Both the position numbers and the translations under genes were made by a program. From positions 186,001 through 250,000 of the forward strand of contig NZ_QYAD01000002.1 of assembly GCF_016758255.1 (NCBI RefSeq): a stretch of 64,000 nt of DNA, written 5' to 3'. Shown piece after piece: positions 7,358-32,994 of this stretch. The notes under the pieces are model-generated. The model worked only from the letters and a program-made list of their open reading frames with translations, was not told the DNA's origin and made no database searches. Position 1 is the first letter of the stretch. Each line of letters starts with the position of its first letter. The DNA comes from Leucobacter chromiireducens subsp. chromiireducens (GTDB lineage Bacteria > Actinomycetota > Actinomycetes > Actinomycetales > Microbacteriaceae).

Positions 7358-8176
7358 GTGGAGAGCGAACACCTGCCGGGCGGATCGGGCGGTGTCTGGC
7401 GGATCGCCGGCGCCGATGGGGTGACGCGCGTCCACCGGCCCACGGGCCCTTGGACCCCCGCGGTGCACGAGTTGCTCGCGCACCTGCACGCGCGCGGCCT
7501 TGATGGCATCCCCGAAGTCGAGGGATTCGACGACGAGGGACGTGAGGTGCTGGAGTACCTCCCCGGACGCACGCTCGATCCCGAGACTGAGCAGGTGAGT
7601 GACGAGGCGCTCGCCGCAGCGGCGGCCTGGCTGCGCCGGTTTCACGATGCAGTACGAGACTTCCCGCGAGACGCCCGCGAGTGGCGGCAGGGCGCACAGG
7701 AACTCGCTAACGGCGAGGTGATCTGTCACAACGATCCCGGGCTCTACAACTGGATGATTCTCGACGGTGAGTTCGCGGGAATGATTGATTGGGATCGGGC
7801 AGGCCCGGGCCGCCCGATCGAAGATCTCGCGTTCCTCTGCTGGTCGGGGGTCCCTTTGCTCCGCGAGATTCCAGTGGCCGACGCCGCGCGTCGCGTCGAT
7901 ATCGCCGCGGCGGCCTACGGTGATGTCGCGCCCGAGGAGCTCCTCGCTGCGGTTGACGCACGAATGGAACTCATCGCCGCGCGCTGGCGTGCGGGCCTCG
8001 AGCGAGAAGATCCGGGCACCATCGCGCTCCGCGACGGCGGCATCATGGCGCGTCACGCGGCGCGGGTCGCCGGCTTCTCGGCTCGCCGCGAGAAGCTGCG
8101 CGCTTTGCTGGTTTCCGACGGCGCGAGCCGGCCCGGCGCAACACCCCAGATCCCGATCGAGCACAGGAGCGAATGA
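7358..8176 (+). CDS. APH family phosphotransferase
   Basis: 272 residues from GTG 7358. The kinase-like fold shows the catalytic loop CHNDPGLYNW (Asp as base, Asn for metal) near residue 125 and the metal-binding IDWDRAGPGRPIEDLAF about 20 residues later. The family covers aminoglycoside, choline, homoserine and methylthioribose kinases; the substrate cannot be read from sequence. The stop overlaps the start of a homocysteine S-methyltransferase gene by four bases, so a small substrate linked to methionine recycling is one idea. The glycine-rich N-lobe loop is short (LPGGSGGVWRI). Confidence 0.82.
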   Translation: MESEHLPGGSGGVWRIAGADGVTRVHRPTGPWTPAVHELLAHLHARGLDGIPEVEGFDDEGREVLEYLPGRTLDPETEQVSDEALAAAAAWLRRFHDAVRDFPRDAREWRQGAQELANGEVICHNDPGLYNWMILDGEFAGMIDWDRAGPGRPIEDLAFLCWSGVPLLREIPVADAARRVDIAAAAYGDVAPEELLAAVDARMELIAARWRAGLEREDPGTIALRDGGIMARHAARVAGFSARREKLRALLVSDGASRPGATPQIPIEHRSE

Positions 8177-12864: not shown

Positions 12865-13791
12865 ATGCTGAGATACATCCTTTTCCGCCTCCTCCAGGTG
12901 ATTCCAGTTCTCCTGGGCACCACATTCCTCATTTACTTCATGGTCTTCGCCATGCCCGGCGACCCCATCCTCGCGATGTTCGGCGACAAGACGCCCGACC
13001 CGGCGATTCTTGAGCGCCTTCGCGAGCAGTACCACCTCGATCAGCCGTTCATCGTCCAGTACCTCATGTACCTGAAGGGCGTTCTCGTCGGCGACTTCGG
13101 GATGAGCTTCTCGGGCCAGGCTGTCTCGGACATCCTCGCGCGCACCTTCCCGGTGACGATCAAGCTCGCGGCGATGGCGATTGTGATCGAGCTCATCCTC
13201 GCTATCACGATCGGCCTCATCTCGGGTCTGCGCAAGGGCAAGCTGTTCGACAACGTCAACCTGATCATCGGCCTGCTCTTCATGAGCATCCCGATCTTCG
13301 TGATCGCCTTCATCGCGCAGTGGGGCCTCGGCATCAAGCTCGGCTGGTTCCGTACGACGGTCGGCACGGGAGCCCCCGTGCAAGACCTGCTGCTGCCGGC
13401 AATCGTGCTCGGCGTCAGCCTCTACGCAACGAGCATGCGCCTCACGCGCGCCTCGGTGATCGACACGCTGAACCAGGACTTCGTGCGCACCGCGTACGCG
13501 AAGGGCCTGAGCCGCGGCCGAGTCGTCCCGGTCCACGTGCTTCGCAACTCGCTCATCCCGACGATCACCAACACCGCAACCGACTTCGGTGTGCTGATGG
13601 TGGGCGCCACGGTGACCGAGGGTATCTTCAACGTTCCCGGCGTCGGCAACGCACTCTTCAACGCGATCCTGAAGGGCGACAACTCGCTGGTGGTCTCCTT
13701 CGTCACGTTCATGGTGCTCATCTACCTCGGCGTGAACCTGATCGTCGACCTGCTGTACGCCGTACTTGACCCGAGGATCCGTTATGCCTGA
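12865..13791 (+). CDS. Oligopeptide ABC transporter permease (OppB-like), system 1
   Basis: 308 residues, six membrane segments. The N-terminus (LRYILFRLLQVIPVLLGTTF) and the EAA loop (RTAYAKGLSRGRVVPVHVLR) are typical of OppB/DppB. It pairs with the OppC-like permease to form the channel. GGGAGGG lies upstream of ATG 12865. Its stop overlaps the next start by eight bases. Confidence 0.92.
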   Translation: MLRYILFRLLQVIPVLLGTTFLIYFMVFAMPGDPILAMFGDKTPDPAILERLREQYHLDQPFIVQYLMYLKGVLVGDFGMSFSGQAVSDILARTFPVTIKLAAMAIVIELILAITIGLISGLRKGKLFDNVNLIIGLLFMSIPIFVIAFIAQWGLGIKLGWFRTTVGTGAPVQDLLLPAIVLGVSLYATSMRLTRASVIDTLNQDFVRTAYAKGLSRGRVVPVHVLRNSLIPTITNTATDFGVLMVGATVTEGIFNVPGVGNALFNAILKGDNSLVVSFVTFMVLIYLGVNLIVDLLYAVLDPRIRYA

Positions 13792-27339: not shown

Positions 27340-27435
27340 CGGGAGGCCGTCTCGAATGAGCCGCGCCCGGGCGGCTCGCGATTTCCTAGTTTGCGTCGAG
27401 ACCCGATAGAGTAGTCCCTGCGTGAAAGCGCAAAT

Positions 27436-27512
27436 CGGGATGTGGCGCAGCTTGGTAGCGCACGTCGTTCGGGACGACGGGGTCGCAGGTTCAAATCCTG
27501 TCATCCCGACCA
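27436..27512 (+). tRNA. tRNA-Pro (anticodon CGG)
   Basis: The acceptor arms CGGGATG (27436-27442) and CATCCCG (27502-27508) pair, the anticodon arm is CGTCG-TTCGGGA-CGACG with anticodon CGG, and the T-loop GGTTCAAATCC is standard. Discriminator A at 27509 is followed by an encoded CCA (27510-27512). Confidence 0.96.
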
Positions 27513-27516
27513 TGAA

Positions 27517-27549
27517 GCCGCGGAAACCTCAGGGTTTCCGCGGCTTTTT
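27517..27549 (+). terminator. Terminator after tRNA-Pro
   Basis: GCCGCGGAAACC pairs with GGTTTCCGCGGC around TCAG, followed by five T. Confidence 0.95.
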
Positions 27550-27625
27550 AGGTTGAGGCGCGCAGCCTGATTCATTGCGCAGGGTCTCATTGGCTGCTCT
27601 TGCTGGCCTGGGGCCCGCTCGTCTG

Positions 27626-27985
27626 TCACAGGACGAGTGAGAGCACCAGTACCGTGACAGACAAGGCCAGGAGGCCGAGGCAGTTCAGCCAGAACGCTGG
27701 CCCGAAAAAGCGAGCACGAATGTGAGACGCGGCGGCACAGGTGAAGTACGCAATCACGCCGACGTTGGCCGCGAAAGCGATGCCCGGAACCCAGATCCCC
27801 ACGATGAGCCCTGCTGTAGCGAGCGTCTTGATCACAATGAGGGTCCACCACCATTCGCGAGGGAACCTCACTCCGTCGAGGCAGTCACGAATGAACTTGG
27901 GAGGACGCATCGACATCGCCGCATCGCTGAGGAGTACGAGAGCAAGCAGAACCGGAGGCCACCATTGCTCGGGTATCAGAATCAT
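27626..27985 (-). CDS. DoxX-like small membrane protein
   Basis: 119 residues, four membrane segments, starting at ATG 27985 with AAGGAG upstream. LNCLGLLALSVTVLVLSLVL ends the protein; the FIRDCLDGVRFPREWWWTL loop is typical of the DoxX-like group near TetR regulators. Its ribosome site lies in the last codons of the TetR gene and only four bases separate the two genes, so they form an operon. Function is unknown; DoxX proteins are linked to quinones or thiol redox balance. Confidence 0.78.
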   Translation of the reverse strand: MILIPEQWWPPVLLALVLLSDAAMSMRPPKFIRDCLDGVRFPREWWWTLIVIKTLATAGLIVGIWVPGIAFAANVGVIAYFTCAAASHIRARFFGPAFWLNCLGLLALSVTVLVLSLVL

Positions 27986-27989
27986 TGGA

Positions 27990-28586
27990 TTACTCCTTAC
28001 AGTCGCAAATGGTGGCAAACGTCGCACCGAGGTGCGAGAGGAGCTCCGCGGGTTCGGAGGAGTTCCTGGCAGACCACGTGAGTAGCGTGCCGATGTAGGC
28101 GAAGTACAGTGCGCGAGCTTTCTGTGCGGCCCCAGTGGGGGCAGTGCAGTCGTGCAGTCCTATTGCTGAGCGAAACTCCTTGTCGATTCGAGCCGCGAGC
28201 TCGGTGAACAAGATGGACTCGTGAGTTCCGGAGACGAGGATCGATGCGTAGTGTCGAGCAAGGATGGGGTTGGTGGTGAAGAGCGTGACGAACGGCTGTA
28301 CGAGAGCAACCAGGCGATCGCTACACGTGTTGTGCGCAGGTGGAGCAGCTTCACTTTCATGCTCCGCGCGTCTCATGTGCTCAGCCGCAATCATGTCATC
28401 AAAGACATGAATCAGGAGGTCGTTTTTGTCTCCGACCACCATCACCCTGCCGACGCTGACGCCGCTGGTCTCCGCAATCTCCCGGATCGTTGTTTCGGCA
28501 AAGCCGCGCTCGCGGAACAGCTGGCCCGCGGTGTCGATGATTCGTTGCTGCGTCGCCTGCCTGAGCTGCTCGCGTGTAGAAGTCAT
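27990..28586 (-). CDS. TetR family regulator
   Basis: 198 residues. Residues 10-60 form the TetR helix-turn-helix (RIIDTAGQLFRERGFAETTI, then REIAETSGVSVGRV). The usual tyrosine-rich end of helix 3 is altered (VMVVGDKNDLL in place of a YxYFxSKexL pattern), so DNA contact may differ. The ligand domain is unremarkable. A perfect inverted repeat upstream and the DoxX-like gene downstream suggest it controls its own operon. Confidence 0.88.
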   Translation of the reverse strand: MTSTREQLRQATQQRIIDTAGQLFRERGFAETTIREIAETSGVSVGRVMVVGDKNDLLIHVFDDMIAAEHMRRAEHESEAAPPAHNTCSDRLVALVQPFVTLFTTNPILARHYASILVSGTHESILFTELAARIDKEFRSAIGLHDCTAPTGAAQKARALYFAYIGTLLTWSARNSSEPAELLSHLGATFATICDCKE

Positions 28587-28614
28587 TCGAGGGAATCCTT
28601 CATTGAGTGTGTTC

Positions 28615-28630
28615 AGTGAACGTGTTCACT
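28615..28630 (-). promoter_or_regulatory. Probable TetR operator
   Basis: AGTGAAC-GT-GTTCACT is a perfect 7-2-7 inverted repeat, 29 bases before the TetR start, next to a possible -10 (TAGAGT on the minus strand). GTGTTC recurs to its left. Confidence 0.7.
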
Positions 28631-28713
28631 CTATCATTTCTCGCTGTCGATGCCGGCGCTGTCTGGTATTCGTCGCGGTGAACGCTTCTCTGGTACACGG
28701 CACAACTCCGGCG

Positions 28714-28719
28714 TACGCT
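28714..28719 (+). promoter_or_regulatory. -10 box of the decayed antitoxin gene
   Basis: TACGCT, then 6 bases, then ATG 28726. The promoter seems to have outlived the gene. Confidence 0.4.
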
Positions 28720-28725
28720 GGGGGC

Positions 28726-28979
28726 ATGTCCATGAGTCTTACTGAGGTTGAGAACGCGATGCTCGCGTTGAACGGCGTGACCTCGCCGCGTTGATTCACC
28801 GTGGACTTCAGGTACTCGATCACGAAGAGTCCTAAGCCTCTCAGCATGAGCTCGATGAGGCTTGGCGTGATGAGCTGAGCAAGCGCATTGACGACATCGA
28901 GAGCGGGAGGGTCGAAACGATGCCCGCTGAGGATGTGTTCGCACGCATCCGTGCGGAACTCGCTGCTCGGCGTCCATGA
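28726..28979 (+). pseudogene. Broken addiction-module antitoxin (RelB/TIGR02574-like)
   Basis: The start (MSMSLTEVENAMLALNG) matches the head of this antitoxin family but stops at 28792. The rest of the family pattern continues two bases out of frame from 28782 (LAALIHRGLQVLDHEES), meets a stop at 28833-28835, then runs on as DEAWRDELSKRIDDIESGRV and PAEDVFARIRAEL to the stop at 28977-28979. One frameshift and one nonsense codon therefore separate three recognisable parts. The end overlaps the toxin start as ATGA, as in intact pairs. Confidence 0.7.
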
Positions 28980-29236
28980 CGCTCGCTCGACGCTTCCATC
29001 CCGAAGCCGGACGGATTCTCGAATGGCCGCGTATCGCGCCCGTGTTCCCCGGGTGGCATCGTGAACTTGTCGTGCGCACCCAGGCCGTACCCAGACTTCC
29101 GTATCGTGTGCTCTACTACTTTGCCGATCAGGTCGTGGTGATTCTTGCGGTCGCGCATTACCGGCGCAAGCCCGGATATTGGAGACCTCGCCTTGGGGAG
29201 TGGGGTCCCGCGAATACCCAACAGAATCACACGTGA
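28976..29236 (+). pseudogene. ParE/RelE-like toxin with central deletion
   Basis: 86 residues in an open frame. RRFHPEAGR (residues 5-13) is the family's first strand, and from ILEWPRIAPVFPGWHRE onward the C-terminal half is well conserved (VPRLPYRVLYYFADQVVVIL, VAHYRRKPGYW). The roughly 35 residues that normally lie between them, including the helix with the AxxWYEE-type pattern, are missing. The deletion kept the frame. With its antitoxin also broken, the toxin is very probably inactive. Confidence 0.68.
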
Positions 29237-29415
29237 CGACTCCAAACCTACCGGCATAGCGTGGAAAGGGTGACATGCCTCGATCCCAAGCAAGTCGAGG
29301 TAAATTGTGGCAACCCGATGTCGTTCCAAGCGCCCTGACTATCGCGTCTGGGGAGATGGTTTTCGGTCTCAGCCCCTATCGTGCCGACAGAATCGCCCGG
29401 AGCTTCATTGAGAAC
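29237..29415. other. Gene-free remnant between toxin remnant and channel gene
   Basis: 179 bases. I see no supported gene, repeat or terminator. Confidence 0.4.
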
Positions 29416-30189
29416 TCAACGAAGTTCCGCGCTTTTCTTGTTTTCGATCTCTCGGACTGCGCCCTCTGGCGCGCTCACGGAGGTGCGTTCCAGCAGTAGT
29501 GACTTTACCTCTGCCAGCTCCCGGCGAAGCTCATTTACTTGCTCGGAGGTAGCGTTGAGGGTGGGCCCGTTTTCGGTGGACACCTTTTCAACGATCCACG
29601 AAGCGAGAGTTGCTGTGACCGCGCCAATCAGTGCGATCCCTCCCAACATTAGTCCCGCGGCGATGACTCGACCGCCAGTAGTGACCGGGGCGAGGTCGCC
29701 GTAGCCGACCGTGGTCATTGTGACTACTGCCCACCACAAGGCTTCACCAAAGGAGTCAATCGTTCCCTCACTCTGTTCCGCATCGAGAATAGCGAGCGCT
29801 GCTATCACAACGAACAAGCTCGCTGCACCGATCGTGTAGGTAACGACCCTTCCCCTCAGAGCGTTGCCCGCGGATCGTTGGACTAGGGCGACAACAGTGA
29901 GAAATCTCATTAGTCTGAGTGGCCTCAGCATAGGCAGCGCGACAATCGCAAGGTCGAGAAGATGTCGATAGAACCATCGCCATCGATCTTCCGTGAGGAT
30001 CAAGCGCGCCAGGTAGTCCACAAGAAAGATGGCCCAGGTCAACCAAATGATGAGCTCTGTGACCTCGCCAAGTATTCCGCCGGGCCGAGAAATGATTTGG
30101 ATCGCGTAGGCGGCAAAGAACGCGAGGGCCGCGAGCGTGAGCGGCCACTCTGTGGCCTTCTCCCAGCGCTGAATCCTGTATCCAAACAT
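29416..30189 (-). CDS. Voltage-gated-type potassium channel
   Basis: 257 residues from ATG 30189. Six membrane segments. Segment 4 is positively charged (LRPLRLMRFLTVVALVQRSA, then NALRGRV), and the pore loop has the filter TMTTVGYGD. The last 50 residues predict a coiled coil (SEQVNELRRELAEVKSLLLE), which may assemble the tetramer. No RCK domain. ATG 30189 has TAACCT 7 bases upstream; GTG 30213 is the other option. The role, potassium leak or membrane-potential control, is inferred from the family. Confidence 0.88.
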   Translation of the reverse strand: MFGYRIQRWEKATEWPLTLAALAFFAAYAIQIISRPGGILGEVTELIIWLTWAIFLVDYLARLILTEDRWRWFYRHLLDLAIVALPMLRPLRLMRFLTVVALVQRSAGNALRGRVVTYTIGAASLFVVIAALAILDAEQSEGTIDSFGEALWWAVVTMTTVGYGDLAPVTTGGRVIAAGLMLGGIALIGAVTATLASWIVEKVSTENGPTLNATSEQVNELRRELAEVKSLLLERTSVSAPEGAVREIENKKSAELR

Positions 30190-30196
30190 GGGAATC

Positions 30197-30202
30197 AGGT
30201 TA
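30197..30202 (-). promoter_or_regulatory. -10 box for leaderless channel gene
   Basis: Minus-strand TAACCT, 7 bases before ATG 30189. Confidence 0.4.
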
Positions 30203-30432
30203 TCGGTGCGCACACTGTCAGCCGGTGCCCACAGTTGGCGTGGTGAGCAGCGCGCAGGCTGCCTTGACGATCCCAGACTCGGTTGGAATGGCCGGAGGAC
30301 TCAGCATAACGAGTACTTCCCGCTGGTGAGGCGCCAGTCGGACGGACTGTTGGGCTTAGCGTCCGTGGCGCCTTCTCGCCCGCTTCCTCCGCATCGAGCT
30401 CGCAACCCGTTTGTCTGCACGATGAAGCAACG

Positions 30433-30472
30433 AAAAGGGCGAGGCTTCCACGGTACGGTGCAGCCTCGCCCT
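30433..30472 (-). terminator. Terminator of the Ltp-repeat gene
   Basis: Read on the minus strand, AGGGCGAGGCT and AGCCTCGCCCT form an 11-bp stem with a 15-base loop, followed by TTTT. Confidence 0.8.
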
Positions 30473-30496
30473 GCGGTGAAGTGTTGCTTCGCGCGC

Positions 30497-31084
30497 CTAG
30501 AGGTTGGCGATCGCCCAGTCGGCTTCCTCCGGAGTGAACTTCTCCCCATATTCAGACGTGAGCTGATCTCGAATGGCCTCTGGTGACATTGACATGGTGT
30601 CCTGGTAGGTGCGCGCTTTCTCGAGCGCGTTCTGATTCCAGTCGGCCTTCACGTTGTCAATGCCATACTGAGCAGCTTCGGGTGAGAACTTCTCGCCATA
30701 CTCTGATGACAGCTGGTCGTAGATTCCAGCCTTGCTCATATGCATTGTGTCGGCATATAGCTGAGCCTTTTTCACTGCGGAGCGGTGTTCCGCAGGCACC
30801 TCAGGCTCCGGTGCCGGCTCCGGTGCGGCAGGGGGTTCCGCTTTCTCCGGCTCAGGCGCCTTTTCTGGTTCGGGCGCCGGTTCTGCCGCTGCGGGTTTCT
30901 TGGTATCGACGGTCGATGCGCTCTCGGTGGCGGACTTTTCGGGTGACTTGTCGCTGCCGCCCGTTGCGGCGTTGACGCCGCCGATCAGGAGGAGTGCGGC
31001 GATCAGCCAGACCCACCACTTCTTGAACCAGGGCTTCTTCGGTTTCGTTCCATTAACAACATTGGAAACTGCTGCTTCTGTCAT
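30497..31084 (-). CDS. Membrane-anchored protein with two Ltp repeats
   Basis: 195 residues. Residues 15-42 are a basic stretch and one membrane segment (WWVWLIAALLLIGGVNAATG). A linker of Glu, Pro and Ala (residues 60-105) leads to two copies of the Ltp domain (AVKKAQLYADTMHMSKAGIY and ALEKARTYQDTMSMSPEAIR, each ending in SEYGEKF[ST]PE). Ltp was named for the host-cell-surface lipoprotein of Streptococcus phage TP-J34, which blocks DNA entry of other phages. Here a membrane helix replaces the lipobox. An anti-phage role is possible but unproven; such repeats also occur in ordinary actinobacterial surface proteins. Confidence 0.82.
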   Translation of the reverse strand: MTEAAVSNVVNGTKPKKPWFKKWWVWLIAALLLIGGVNAATGGSDKSPEKSATESASTVDTKKPAAAEPAPEPEKAPEPEKAEPPAAPEPAPEPEVPAEHRSAVKKAQLYADTMHMSKAGIYDQLSSEYGEKFSPEAAQYGIDNVKADWNQNALEKARTYQDTMSMSPEAIRDQLTSEYGEKFTPEEADWAIANL

Positions 31085-31090
31085 GCTCTG

Positions 31091-31096
31091 AGCATA
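31091..31096 (-). promoter_or_regulatory. -10 box for leaderless Ltp-repeat gene
   Basis: Minus-strand TATGCT, then 6 bases, then ATG 31084. Confidence 0.5.
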
Positions 31097-31122
31097 GCCA
31101 AATCTAATCTTATTTGAGCTTC

Positions 31123-31422
31123 ATGCCTCTGATTCCTGAGACAATTGCGTTTATGCTCAAAAACAACGCGCCAGCTACCTGGCTATTCAACATAGCTGTA
31201 TTCATGACGATCGTTGGGGGCATCGCGTTGATCCTTGGCGGCGCCTTTGCTCACCCGGGTATGGTTTCGGCTCTTGAGAGCCCTGTTCCCGGAGCCGTTC
31301 TTGTGACGCTGGGGTTCTCCGGTCTCTCAATCGGGATTGCGCTGTTTCTTACGTACCTCGTGGTGGCAGCGATTGTTGTCGGTGTTACTCGCGCGATTGC
31401 CGAGGCGATCAGGAGCGAATAG
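31123..31422 (+). CDS. Small membrane protein, unknown
   Basis: 99 residues from ATG 31123; ATG 31153 is also possible. Two clear membrane segments (WLFNIAVFMTIVGGIALILG and SGLSIGIALFLTYLVVAAIV), with a short loop rich in Pro and Ser between them. No family is recognised. It is divergent from the Ltp-repeat gene and converges on the lipoprotein gene 18 bases downstream. Its lower-GC codons match the surrounding accessory stretch. Confidence 0.5.
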   Translation: MPLIPETIAFMLKNNAPATWLFNIAVFMTIVGGIALILGGAFAHPGMVSALESPVPGAVLVTLGFSGLSIGIALFLTYLVVAAIVVGVTRAIAEAIRSE

Positions 31423-31439
31423 GTGGCACGACGTAGGAA

Positions 31440-31871
31440 TCACAACTGCGGGTCGCGGTGGACTCCCTCGAAGGGGGTGAGCGTGCGCCACACGCCCGAC
31501 TCGTCGCGGGTGATGAAGAGGACCACCTCGCCAGAGACGTCGAGCGGATCGCCCTCCGGGTATACCTTGTCGCCCGAGCACGTGACCGGCGTGGACGCGA
31601 CGGGCAGCGCGGTGCCCGCAGTGGCATCACCCTTCAGGACCTCGCGCACGGCGACCGTATGCACCGCAGCGTCATATCCGAAGAGCTGCGTTGTCTTCCT
31701 TGTCGGCGTGACCGTGCCGCGGACGACCAGCTCGGAGTCAGCGAACACCGCGTCGACAGAGTCGTATCCGGCCCAGGAGACGCAGCTCTGCGCCTGGGGC
31801 ATGCAGCCACTCAGCATTCCACAGCAGAGCGCTACGAGGGCAATGGTGCTCGCACTGTTCCGAATCCTCAT
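31440..31871 (-). CDS. Small lipoprotein, unknown
   Basis: 143 residues from ATG 31871, which has TATGGT 6 bases upstream and begins a signal ending in the lipobox GMLSGC. The mature domain is a beta-rich region (VDAVFADSELVVRGTVTPTR, VHTVAVREVLKGDATAGTAL, EVVLFITRDESGVWRTLTP) resembling small secreted beta-barrel domains of unknown function. Two cysteines (QSCVSW and VTCSGD) may form a disulfide. Confidence 0.7.
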   Translation of the reverse strand: MRIRNSASTIALVALCCGMLSGCMPQAQSCVSWAGYDSVDAVFADSELVVRGTVTPTRKTTQLFGYDAAVHTVAVREVLKGDATAGTALPVASTPVTCSGDKVYPEGDPLDVSGEVVLFITRDESGVWRTLTPFEGVHRDPQL

Positions 31872-31877
31872 GCTGTG

Positions 31878-31883
31878 ACCATA
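31878..31883 (-). promoter_or_regulatory. -10 box for leaderless lipoprotein gene
   Basis: Minus-strand TATGGT, then 6 bases, then ATG 31871. Confidence 0.45.
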
Positions 31884-32035
31884 CGCGCGAAATGCGTTAC
31901 CTGCACGGGCGCGGGGAGAGCACGGCAAAGGAGTGCGCGAAGGGCGTCACAGGCCCTCGTCGCGACACGCCCGGCGTGAAGTCGCCGAGCCTGAGAACTC
32001 CCGGTGAGGGATGTGAACCGGGTATCTTCGATGGT

Positions 32036-32242
32036 ATGACTTCCCAGAGCTTCCTCCGTCTTCCCGAGTCCGTTCAAGTTCTCGTGACCGAAGGCCTTGA
32101 CACCGAGGTGCAGAACTCGTTCGCTCGGATCGAGGAAGCACAGGCCGCGGGTGATGAGACGCTCGTCCGCTTCCTGGAGGGCGACATCATGCGTGCCTCG
32201 GCGCTGCGCATGAAGATCACCGGGGAAGACCCGAAGATCTAG
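32036..32242 (+). CDS. Small conserved-looking protein, unknown
   Basis: 68 residues, mostly helical and acidic (SVQVLVTEGLDTEVQNSFAR, then EEAQAAGDETLVRFLEGDIM). TATCTT 7 bases before ATG 32036 suggests a leaderless message. No family recognised. Its TAG stop shares the sequence CTAG with the stop of the convergent SnoaL-like gene. Confidence 0.55.
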   Translation: MTSQSFLRLPESVQVLVTEGLDTEVQNSFARIEEAQAAGDETLVRFLEGDIMRASALRMKITGEDPKI

Positions 32243-32664: not shown

Positions 32665-32994
32665 GCATCGATTCTGGCATGGCTGGCGCCCTGTACCCGC
32701 GCACGAATGAGGCGCTCCGCTCCGCCCCAATTGGCCCTTCGTCGCAGAAACCGATAGGTATGGTGTGGGCGACTTTGCCCAGAACTCCGTCGAAAGGGGA
32801 GCCCTATCCATCCGCCGGTACACGTCCACTCTCACTCAAGACCTCTTGCCAACCCCGCGCCGCTCCGCGAGCGCCTGATCGATGTCACGCGGCGATTTAC
32901 GCCGTCGGACCTCATTCCCACTTAGCGTTCTTTCTTTTCACCATTCGGTTCCCGGCACTGACGCCGACCATCCGTATCTTGAAAGGAACACGCA
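32665..32994. other. Intergenic region before the symporter gene
   Basis: 330 bases. It should carry the symporter promoter; TTGGCC (about 32730) and TAGGTA 18 bp later are a weak candidate. A short hairpin (CGGCG-ATTTA-CGCCG) lies near 32890 and AAAGGA serves as ribosome site before ATG 32995. I do not recognise a riboswitch. No gene. Confidence 0.4.

Follow-up and report, generated by a model that had tools for sequence, protein, structure and literature searches.

A disrupted toxin-antitoxin pair next to a tRNA-Pro gene

The 64,000-nucleotide stretch of the Leucobacter chromiireducens subsp. chromiireducens genome that was analyzed here, which we refer to as the window, contains the remains of a type II toxin-antitoxin (TA) pair, located downstream of a gene for tRNA-Pro and of 2 genes on the opposite strand that encode a DoxX-like membrane protein and a TetR-family regulator (Table 1). 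The gene order TypA, a 222 amino acid protein, and tRNA-Pro is conserved in 2 other Leucobacter genomes, here called G007 and G029. For a neighboring gene, the closest named records are those of Leucobacter chromiireducens LYC-2 and Leucobacter sp. PH1c, with 84% and 79% amino acid identity.

Table 1. Coordinates of the features at the locus, given as positions in the window.
Feature	Position	Strand	Remarks
tRNA-Pro gene (anticodon CGG)	27436..27512	+	Putative integration site; identified with ARAGORN
attL-like segment	27476..27553	+	tRNA-Pro 3' half and a terminator of the type also found in second tRNA copies
Whole accessory interval	27554..31961	.	Not at the site in two close syntenic relatives
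DoxX-like membrane protein gene	27626..28027	-	Open frame, start uncertain; PF13564, 48.4 bits
TetR-family regulator gene	27990..28586	-	Open frame; PF00440, 33.6 bits
-10 box TACGCT	28714..28719	+	6 nt before the antitoxin ATG; putative leaderless-type promoter
Antitoxin pseudogene (TIGR02574/PF09720)	28726..28979	+	Frameshift at about 28772, TAA at 28833-28835
Toxin pseudogene (ParE/RelE-like)	28976..29236	+	Open frame of 86 amino acids; 30 central residues and the usual stop lost
attR-like segment	29365..29442	+	Decayed tRNA-Pro 3' end (to about 29388) and native-type tRNA-Pro terminator

The antitoxin ATG at position 28726 opens a frame that closes at 28794 after 22 codons. In an alignment with the copies in the Leucobacter genomes G003 and G041, the window sequence contained one base fewer than both, with the loss placed at about 28772/28773. 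The original frame runs from about 28779 to the TGA codon at 28977-28979 and is interrupted by a single TAA codon, which differs by 2 bases from both aligned relatives and corresponds to a sense codon in each of them. The C-terminal piece of the antitoxin scored 36.4 bits with PF09720 (cut-off 23.3) and 42.2 bits with TIGR02574 (cut-off 31.9), and the N-terminal piece of 22 amino acids matched no Pfam or NCBIfam family by itself. Since the frameshift and the TAA codon leave no continuous full-length frame in the window, the gene was classified as a pseudogene of the TIGR02574/PF09720 family, and its locus is the single PF09720 place found in its own genome. When solved structures were searched with an antitoxin profile, all of the chains returned were at chance level (E 0.18 or worse), and no papers that name TIGR02574 or PF09720 were found in the literature available to us.

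The toxin frame matched ParE_toxin (PF05016) with 20.9 bits (E 0.00056), which is under the curated cut-off of 23 bits, and had no match in NCBIfam. An alignment with 11 relatives revealed that a central stretch is absent from the window toxin; relative to the G003 toxin, 90 nt corresponding to 30 residues are gone in frame. The loss of the usual stop codon adds approximately 11 residues to the C-terminus, and the conserved C-terminal block is retained. The frame scored 89.8 bits with a Leucobacter toxin profile that itself contains the window sequence. The predicted product is a shortened homolog of the full-length ParE/RelE-like toxins. When the toxin profile was compared with solved chains, the sole match at E up to 0.01 was the ParE2 toxin in PDB 8c26 (E 1e-4), which is distant to the window toxin and aligns with about 30 central residues that the window toxin lacks. 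The G003 toxin matched 9 plasmid records, 3 of which were actinobacterial with about 40% identity and an "addiction module protein" annotated beneath the match, as well as one phage record; a search of 72,556 plasmid records with the antitoxin protein of G003 gave no match at E 1e-3.

Gene order, overlap, and promoter-like sequence

The pair displays the layout of a type II TA operon, with the antitoxin gene placed first, 2 adjoining and overlapping genes, and one promoter-like site upstream. The ATG of the toxin overlaps the TGA of the antitoxin in the sequence ATGA at positions 28976-28979. Homologous loci were collected from Leucobacter genomes and from a sample of 299 genomes of the family Microbacteriaceae, in which 25 matches were obtained, 3 of them already in the Leucobacter set, resulting in 22 further loci. 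The first base of the toxin start codon directly precedes the antitoxin stop codon, giving ATGA or GTGA, in 10 of the 12 intact Leucobacter pairs and in all 14 intact pairs from the family sample, which amounts to 24 of 26 intact pairs altogether.

A TANNNT box whose end lies 6 or 7 nt upstream of a candidate antitoxin start was identified at 33 of the 40 other Microbacteriaceae loci, of which 13 were among the 18 other Leucobacter loci (the exceptions being L043, L048, L052, L055, and L059) and 20 among the 22 further loci in the family sample (the exceptions being L082 and L092). Such a box precedes 15 of the 1338 ATG codons in the window, a background rate of 1.1%; the antitoxin start was picked among the available starts, with GTG allowed, which inflates the chance rate a few-fold, to a value below the observed level. 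The putative -10 box placed 6 nt before the ATG is a feature of the family.

Cortes et al. (2013; PMC3898074) reported for Mycobacterium tuberculosis that, among 37 TA gene pairs that have a primary start site, 32 are leaderless. The leaderless TA operons in that study resemble the window in having a TANNNT -10 box at leaderless spacing, and the loci examined here differ in that they belong to Microbacteriaceae, contain PF09720 antitoxins, and were read from sequence alone. The comparison would, at the sequence level, extend the reported association of TA operons with leaderless promoters to the PF09720 antitoxins in Microbacteriaceae.

A preliminary description of the locus had assigned the 2 genes to the same families and had reported a frameshift and a nonsense codon in the antitoxin, as well as the gene order, the ATGA overlap, and the -10 box, all of which were confirmed. 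It had also reported an in-frame loss of about 35 central residues from the toxin; the loss is indeed in frame, and its size was corrected to 30 residues.

Homologous pairs and the order of decay

Within the genus, PF09720 was identified at 19 places in 16 of the 54 genomes, and a DNA query that covered the pair and its flanks matched 10 of the 54 genomes, the window's own genome being included in both counts. The best DNA matches to the pair were found in G003, G041, and G007, with complete homologous pairs in G003 and G007. The match to the complete pair in G003 was 81% identical over 214 nt (E 2e-52), which excludes a chance resemblance.

The comparison comprised 41 loci, and the term intact describes the reading frame rather than the function of a gene, meaning that the frame was open and of the expected length. 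Both genes were intact at 26 loci, only the antitoxin at 12 loci, where the toxin was broken or missing, and neither at 3 loci, where each of the 2 genes was broken or missing; there was no locus at which the antitoxin was the only broken gene. For the 19 Leucobacter loci, one of which (L059) has an ambiguous antitoxin start, both genes were intact in 12 cases, the antitoxin was intact and the toxin broken in 4 cases (L043, L044, L047, and L053), both genes were broken or missing in 3 cases (the window, L048, and L055), and an intact toxin next to a broken antitoxin was found in none. Of the 22 family-sample loci, 14 were intact pairs, and at the other 8 (L079, L082, L085, L087, L088, L092, L093, and L097) an antitoxin frame was present and the toxin was broken or missing; no toxin piece at all was found at L085 and L092, the latter being a weak and divergent match that may be no TA locus.

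These loci were located through the antitoxin, and the genus was therefore also searched with a toxin profile, which was built from these toxins and that of the window and which very different toxins would escape. All 12 full-length hits, covering at least 99 of 105 positions, were the toxins of the 12 intact pairs. The remaining hits in the genus comprised the window toxin, fragments, one hit at a contig end, and a weak match in G030 (31 bits) that, judging from its translation, looks like a different ParE/RelE protein. It was also noted that 2 incomplete toxin matches, each in another frame, follow an intact antitoxin at L053:1704-1924 (reverse complement), as if 2 toxin genes had recombined.

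The asymmetry fits the expectation that the antitoxin cannot be lost for as long as the toxin works. Judging statistically from the other loci, most of which were found through the antitoxin, the toxin probably dies before the antitoxin, and the pattern suggests that the 90-nt loss in the toxin came first in the window. The broken toxins also bear on the question of whether the lesions in the window are assembly or sequencing errors in a pair that is really intact. The loss of a single base is a common type of error, but the lesions are unlike each other (a one-base loss, a nonsense codon, a 90-nt in-frame loss, and a lost stop), they lie in an assembly of 6 contigs that is rated 100% complete, and 6 of the 18 other Leucobacter loci likewise have a broken or missing toxin, which makes such errors an extremely improbable explanation.

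Age of the lesions

The dN/dS values, estimated by the Nei-Gojobori method, are rough, since they are based on few codons and on dS values of 0.4 to 2.0. For the C-terminal part of the antitoxin, dN/dS was 0.16 between the window and G003, as it was between G003 and G041, and the 15 N-terminal codons had a value of 0.29. The 2 toxin remnants had values of 0.16 and 0.17 in the comparison with G003, no higher than between intact copies, and the TetR gene had a value of 0.14 in the comparison with the Leucobacter genome G050. Since most of the surviving pieces thus have values like those of intact genes, most of the divergence seems to predate the lesions, and the death of the pair would be recent.

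The low values of the toxin remnants could instead mean that the shortened frame survives as a small protein with a function, such as that of a non-toxic partner or a regulator, and the open frame and the preserved C-terminal block are in line with this. Yet the 30 lost residues form the center of the alignment, the gene for the antitoxin partner is itself broken, the stop codon has shifted, and lesions that are recent relative to the divergence from G003 would leave a dN/dS just as low. We consider a retained small protein very unlikely, and favor a recently disabled toxin gene.

An accessory interval at the tRNA-Pro gene

In the close and syntenic relatives G007 and G029, homology to the window ends at positions 27553 and 27510 and returns at 31962 and 31961, respectively, and nothing in the stretches fetched from these genomes aligned to the window between the break and the return at E 1e-4. 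The interval is therefore accessory. In a third relative, G019, homology likewise breaks at 27510 and resumes at 32913.

The tRNA-Pro loci of 17 relatives were fetched and sorted by the type of terminator. A CCCGGAAC... hairpin was present at 9 loci (G029, G003, G018, G017, G053, G019, G020, G004, and G044) and a GCCGCGG or GTCGCGG hairpin, as in the window, at 7 loci (G007, G001, G028, G049, G006, G050, and G005), with another type at one locus (G013). We refer to the first type as native, which is our own label, based on G029; the native-type loci of G003 and G044 also bear second copies.

A local alignment of the window with the tRNA-Pro 3' end and terminator of G029 gave a score of 81 at 29365-29442, compared with a maximum of 36 in 200 dinucleotide-preserving shuffles, and scores of 26 to 28, inside its own shuffle range, in the rest of the window. 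The same place was the best for 8 further native-type queries (scores 45 to 77), and 3 queries of other types scored 24 to 25, one of them at 29365-29400 and 2 elsewhere; 5 of the 17 loci were left out as queries. The copy was detected only by comparing the tRNA end and the terminator of the relatives together. The tRNA 3' end alone missed it, with a best hit at 29294-29318 and a score of 22 that was equalled by 43 of 200 shuffles, and when the window was scanned for another tRNA-Pro 3' end, with up to 3 mismatches allowed, the tRNA itself was the only hit. The direct repeat of the tRNA 3' end on the far side, which begins 129 bp after the toxin, is thus a decayed copy, the tRNA part of which is not significant alone. 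Second copies of the attL-like segment are present in G003, G050, and G007.

None of the integrase and excisionase-like proteins encoded by G050 and G007 matched the interval 27400-32100 at E up to 1; as a control, the N-terminal integrase piece and the excisionase of G050 matched those of G007 at 67% and 77%. The absence of these genes implies that the window contains at most a remnant of a tRNA-integrating element. Most likely, the pair is passenger DNA within an element remnant that spans about 1.9 kb (27476-29390) and is enclosed by the attL-like and the decayed attR-like repeats. This element appears to reach only to about 29390, and the stretch from 29.45 to 31.96 kb appears to be a separate accessory stretch. 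Beyond the displaced tRNA end, positions 29416-31084 include genes for an ion-channel protein (PF07885) and for a protein that matched Lipoprotein_Ltp (168 bits, in 2 stretches), and this part has partial DNA matches elsewhere in the genus.

The accessory origin that had been proposed for the segment from 27.6 to 32 kb is confirmed by the limits of homology, with the element that contained the pair seemingly occupying only the part up to about 29390. Joint decay of the 2 genes had been taken as a sign of a mobile module, for which decay alone is insufficient; it is the duplicated tRNA-Pro 3' end that indicates mobility.

Related elements in other Leucobacter genomes

In at least 7 of the 54 genomes (G003, G005, G028, G037, G044, G047, and G050), the contig and strand that bear the tRNA-Pro gene also contain a second tRNA-Pro 3' segment, 3.8 to 72 kb downstream of the gene, with 9 to 13 candidates scored per genome. 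The gene for tRNA-Pro(CGG) is a predicted repeated insertion site in Leucobacter.

After a tRNA 3' copy in G050 (L018:10220-10300) come an HTH_17 excisionase-like gene and a gene for a split tyrosine integrase, the C-terminal piece of which matched PF00589 with 72.5 bits, then genes for DoxX and TetR proteins with 81% and 79% amino acid identity to the window genes (over 198 amino acids for TetR), and an exact 37-nt tRNA 3' copy at 2823-2859. On contig C89 of G007, the tRNA copy at L015:5853-5929 precedes an HTH_17 gene, an open reading frame for an integrase N-terminus (PF14659), a TA pair, and the genes for Lamassu LmuA and LmuB, as called by PADLOC, and an exact 18-nt piece of the tRNA was found at 13129-13146 (score 36; maximum of 29 in 60 shuffles). 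The pair in G003 sits between a tRNA copy (L013:6450-6529) and a degenerate copy at 7498-7525, which scored 35 against shuffle maxima of 26 for the tRNA query and 34 for a longer query. The displaced copy that was predicted in G007's own tRNA-Pro interval yielded a 14-nt match at chance level, and the hit for the tRNA 3' end in the G041 contig was also at chance level (score 23).

We noted that the integrase-like open reading frame in G007 (L015:6307-8421) codes for 704 amino acids and starts as a tyrosine integrase (PF14659), with no Pfam match in the rest; it looks as if 2 genes had been fused and the catalytic domain lost, and its C-terminal part is presumably relaxase-like. The defense cluster of G007 (L015:2450-5624 and L015:9239-12945) is located at the tRNA-Pro 3' copy, with SIR2-HerA on one side and the excisionase-like gene, the integrase-like open reading frame, the TA pair, and Lamassu LmuA/LmuB on the other.

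Some of the PF09720 pairs in the genus appear to lie on contigs or at sites with no tRNA-Pro copy nearby, as would be expected if the window pair were an old resident chromosomal locus that had decayed next to the tRNA gene by coincidence. We give this explanation a slim chance, since the pair is not at the site in 2 close syntenic relatives, is enclosed by 2 tRNA-Pro 3' segments, and has homologs in G003 and G007 that are also beside tRNA-Pro 3' copies.

Proposed history of the locus

We consider it highly likely that the locus represents a recently killed type II TA pair that was a passenger of a small integrative element inserted into tRNA-Pro(CGG). The pair and the TetR-DoxX genes are enclosed by the tRNA-Pro gene and the decayed second 3' copy with its native-type terminator, and the elements at tRNA-Pro 3' copies in other species combine xis-like and int genes with either TetR-DoxX (G050) or a homologous TA pair (G007). 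Upon insertion, the copy and terminator of the element itself would have replaced the 3' half of the tRNA, and the native end would have been pushed to the far side; a complete tRNA with the end of the element and a displaced native end is the expected trace of insertion into a tRNA 3' end. In the intact state, an antitoxin produced from a leaderless mRNA would have restrained the ParE-like toxin, thereby aiding the persistence of the element. The 90-nt in-frame loss may then have disabled the toxin first and made the antitoxin dispensable, after which the antitoxin would have acquired the frameshift and the nonsense codon. With the integrase gone and attR decayed, the remnant would have become fixed, with the TetR and DoxX frames staying open. 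The pair itself is presumably inactive.

The window shares a duplicated tRNA 3' end, with the complete tRNA at one side, with the integrative elements and islands that are inserted into tRNA 3' ends and encode a tyrosine integrase and an excisionase, and the relatives G050 and G007 contain integrase and excisionase-like genes; the window remnant differs in that it has neither of these genes and that its attR-like copy has decayed. Similarly, it has the families, the gene order, and the ATGA/GTGA overlap of type II TA systems in which a TIGR02574/PF09720 "putative addiction module" antitoxin is combined with a RelE/ParE-family toxin, but both genes are broken. The locus represents ordinary biology and a fossil of a common kind, placed in a probable remnant of a tRNA-Pro element.

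More tentatively, the tRNA-Pro(CGG) gene of Leucobacter might host a family of integrative elements in which xis and int are accompanied by a leaderless TA pair of the ParE type and by exchangeable cargo, and loss of the toxin and then the antitoxin, along with int and attR, might be a repeatable route out of addiction that domesticates useful cargo, a generalization that we regard as possible rather than likely. The cargo would consist of TetR-DoxX in G050 and the window, and of Lamassu in G007, with SIR2-HerA across the tRNA copy. The comparison of 41 loci makes the expected order of decay, with the toxin lost before the antitoxin, countable, and the locus is a legible record of the way in which a mobile element may shed its addiction module and settle for good at a tRNA gene.
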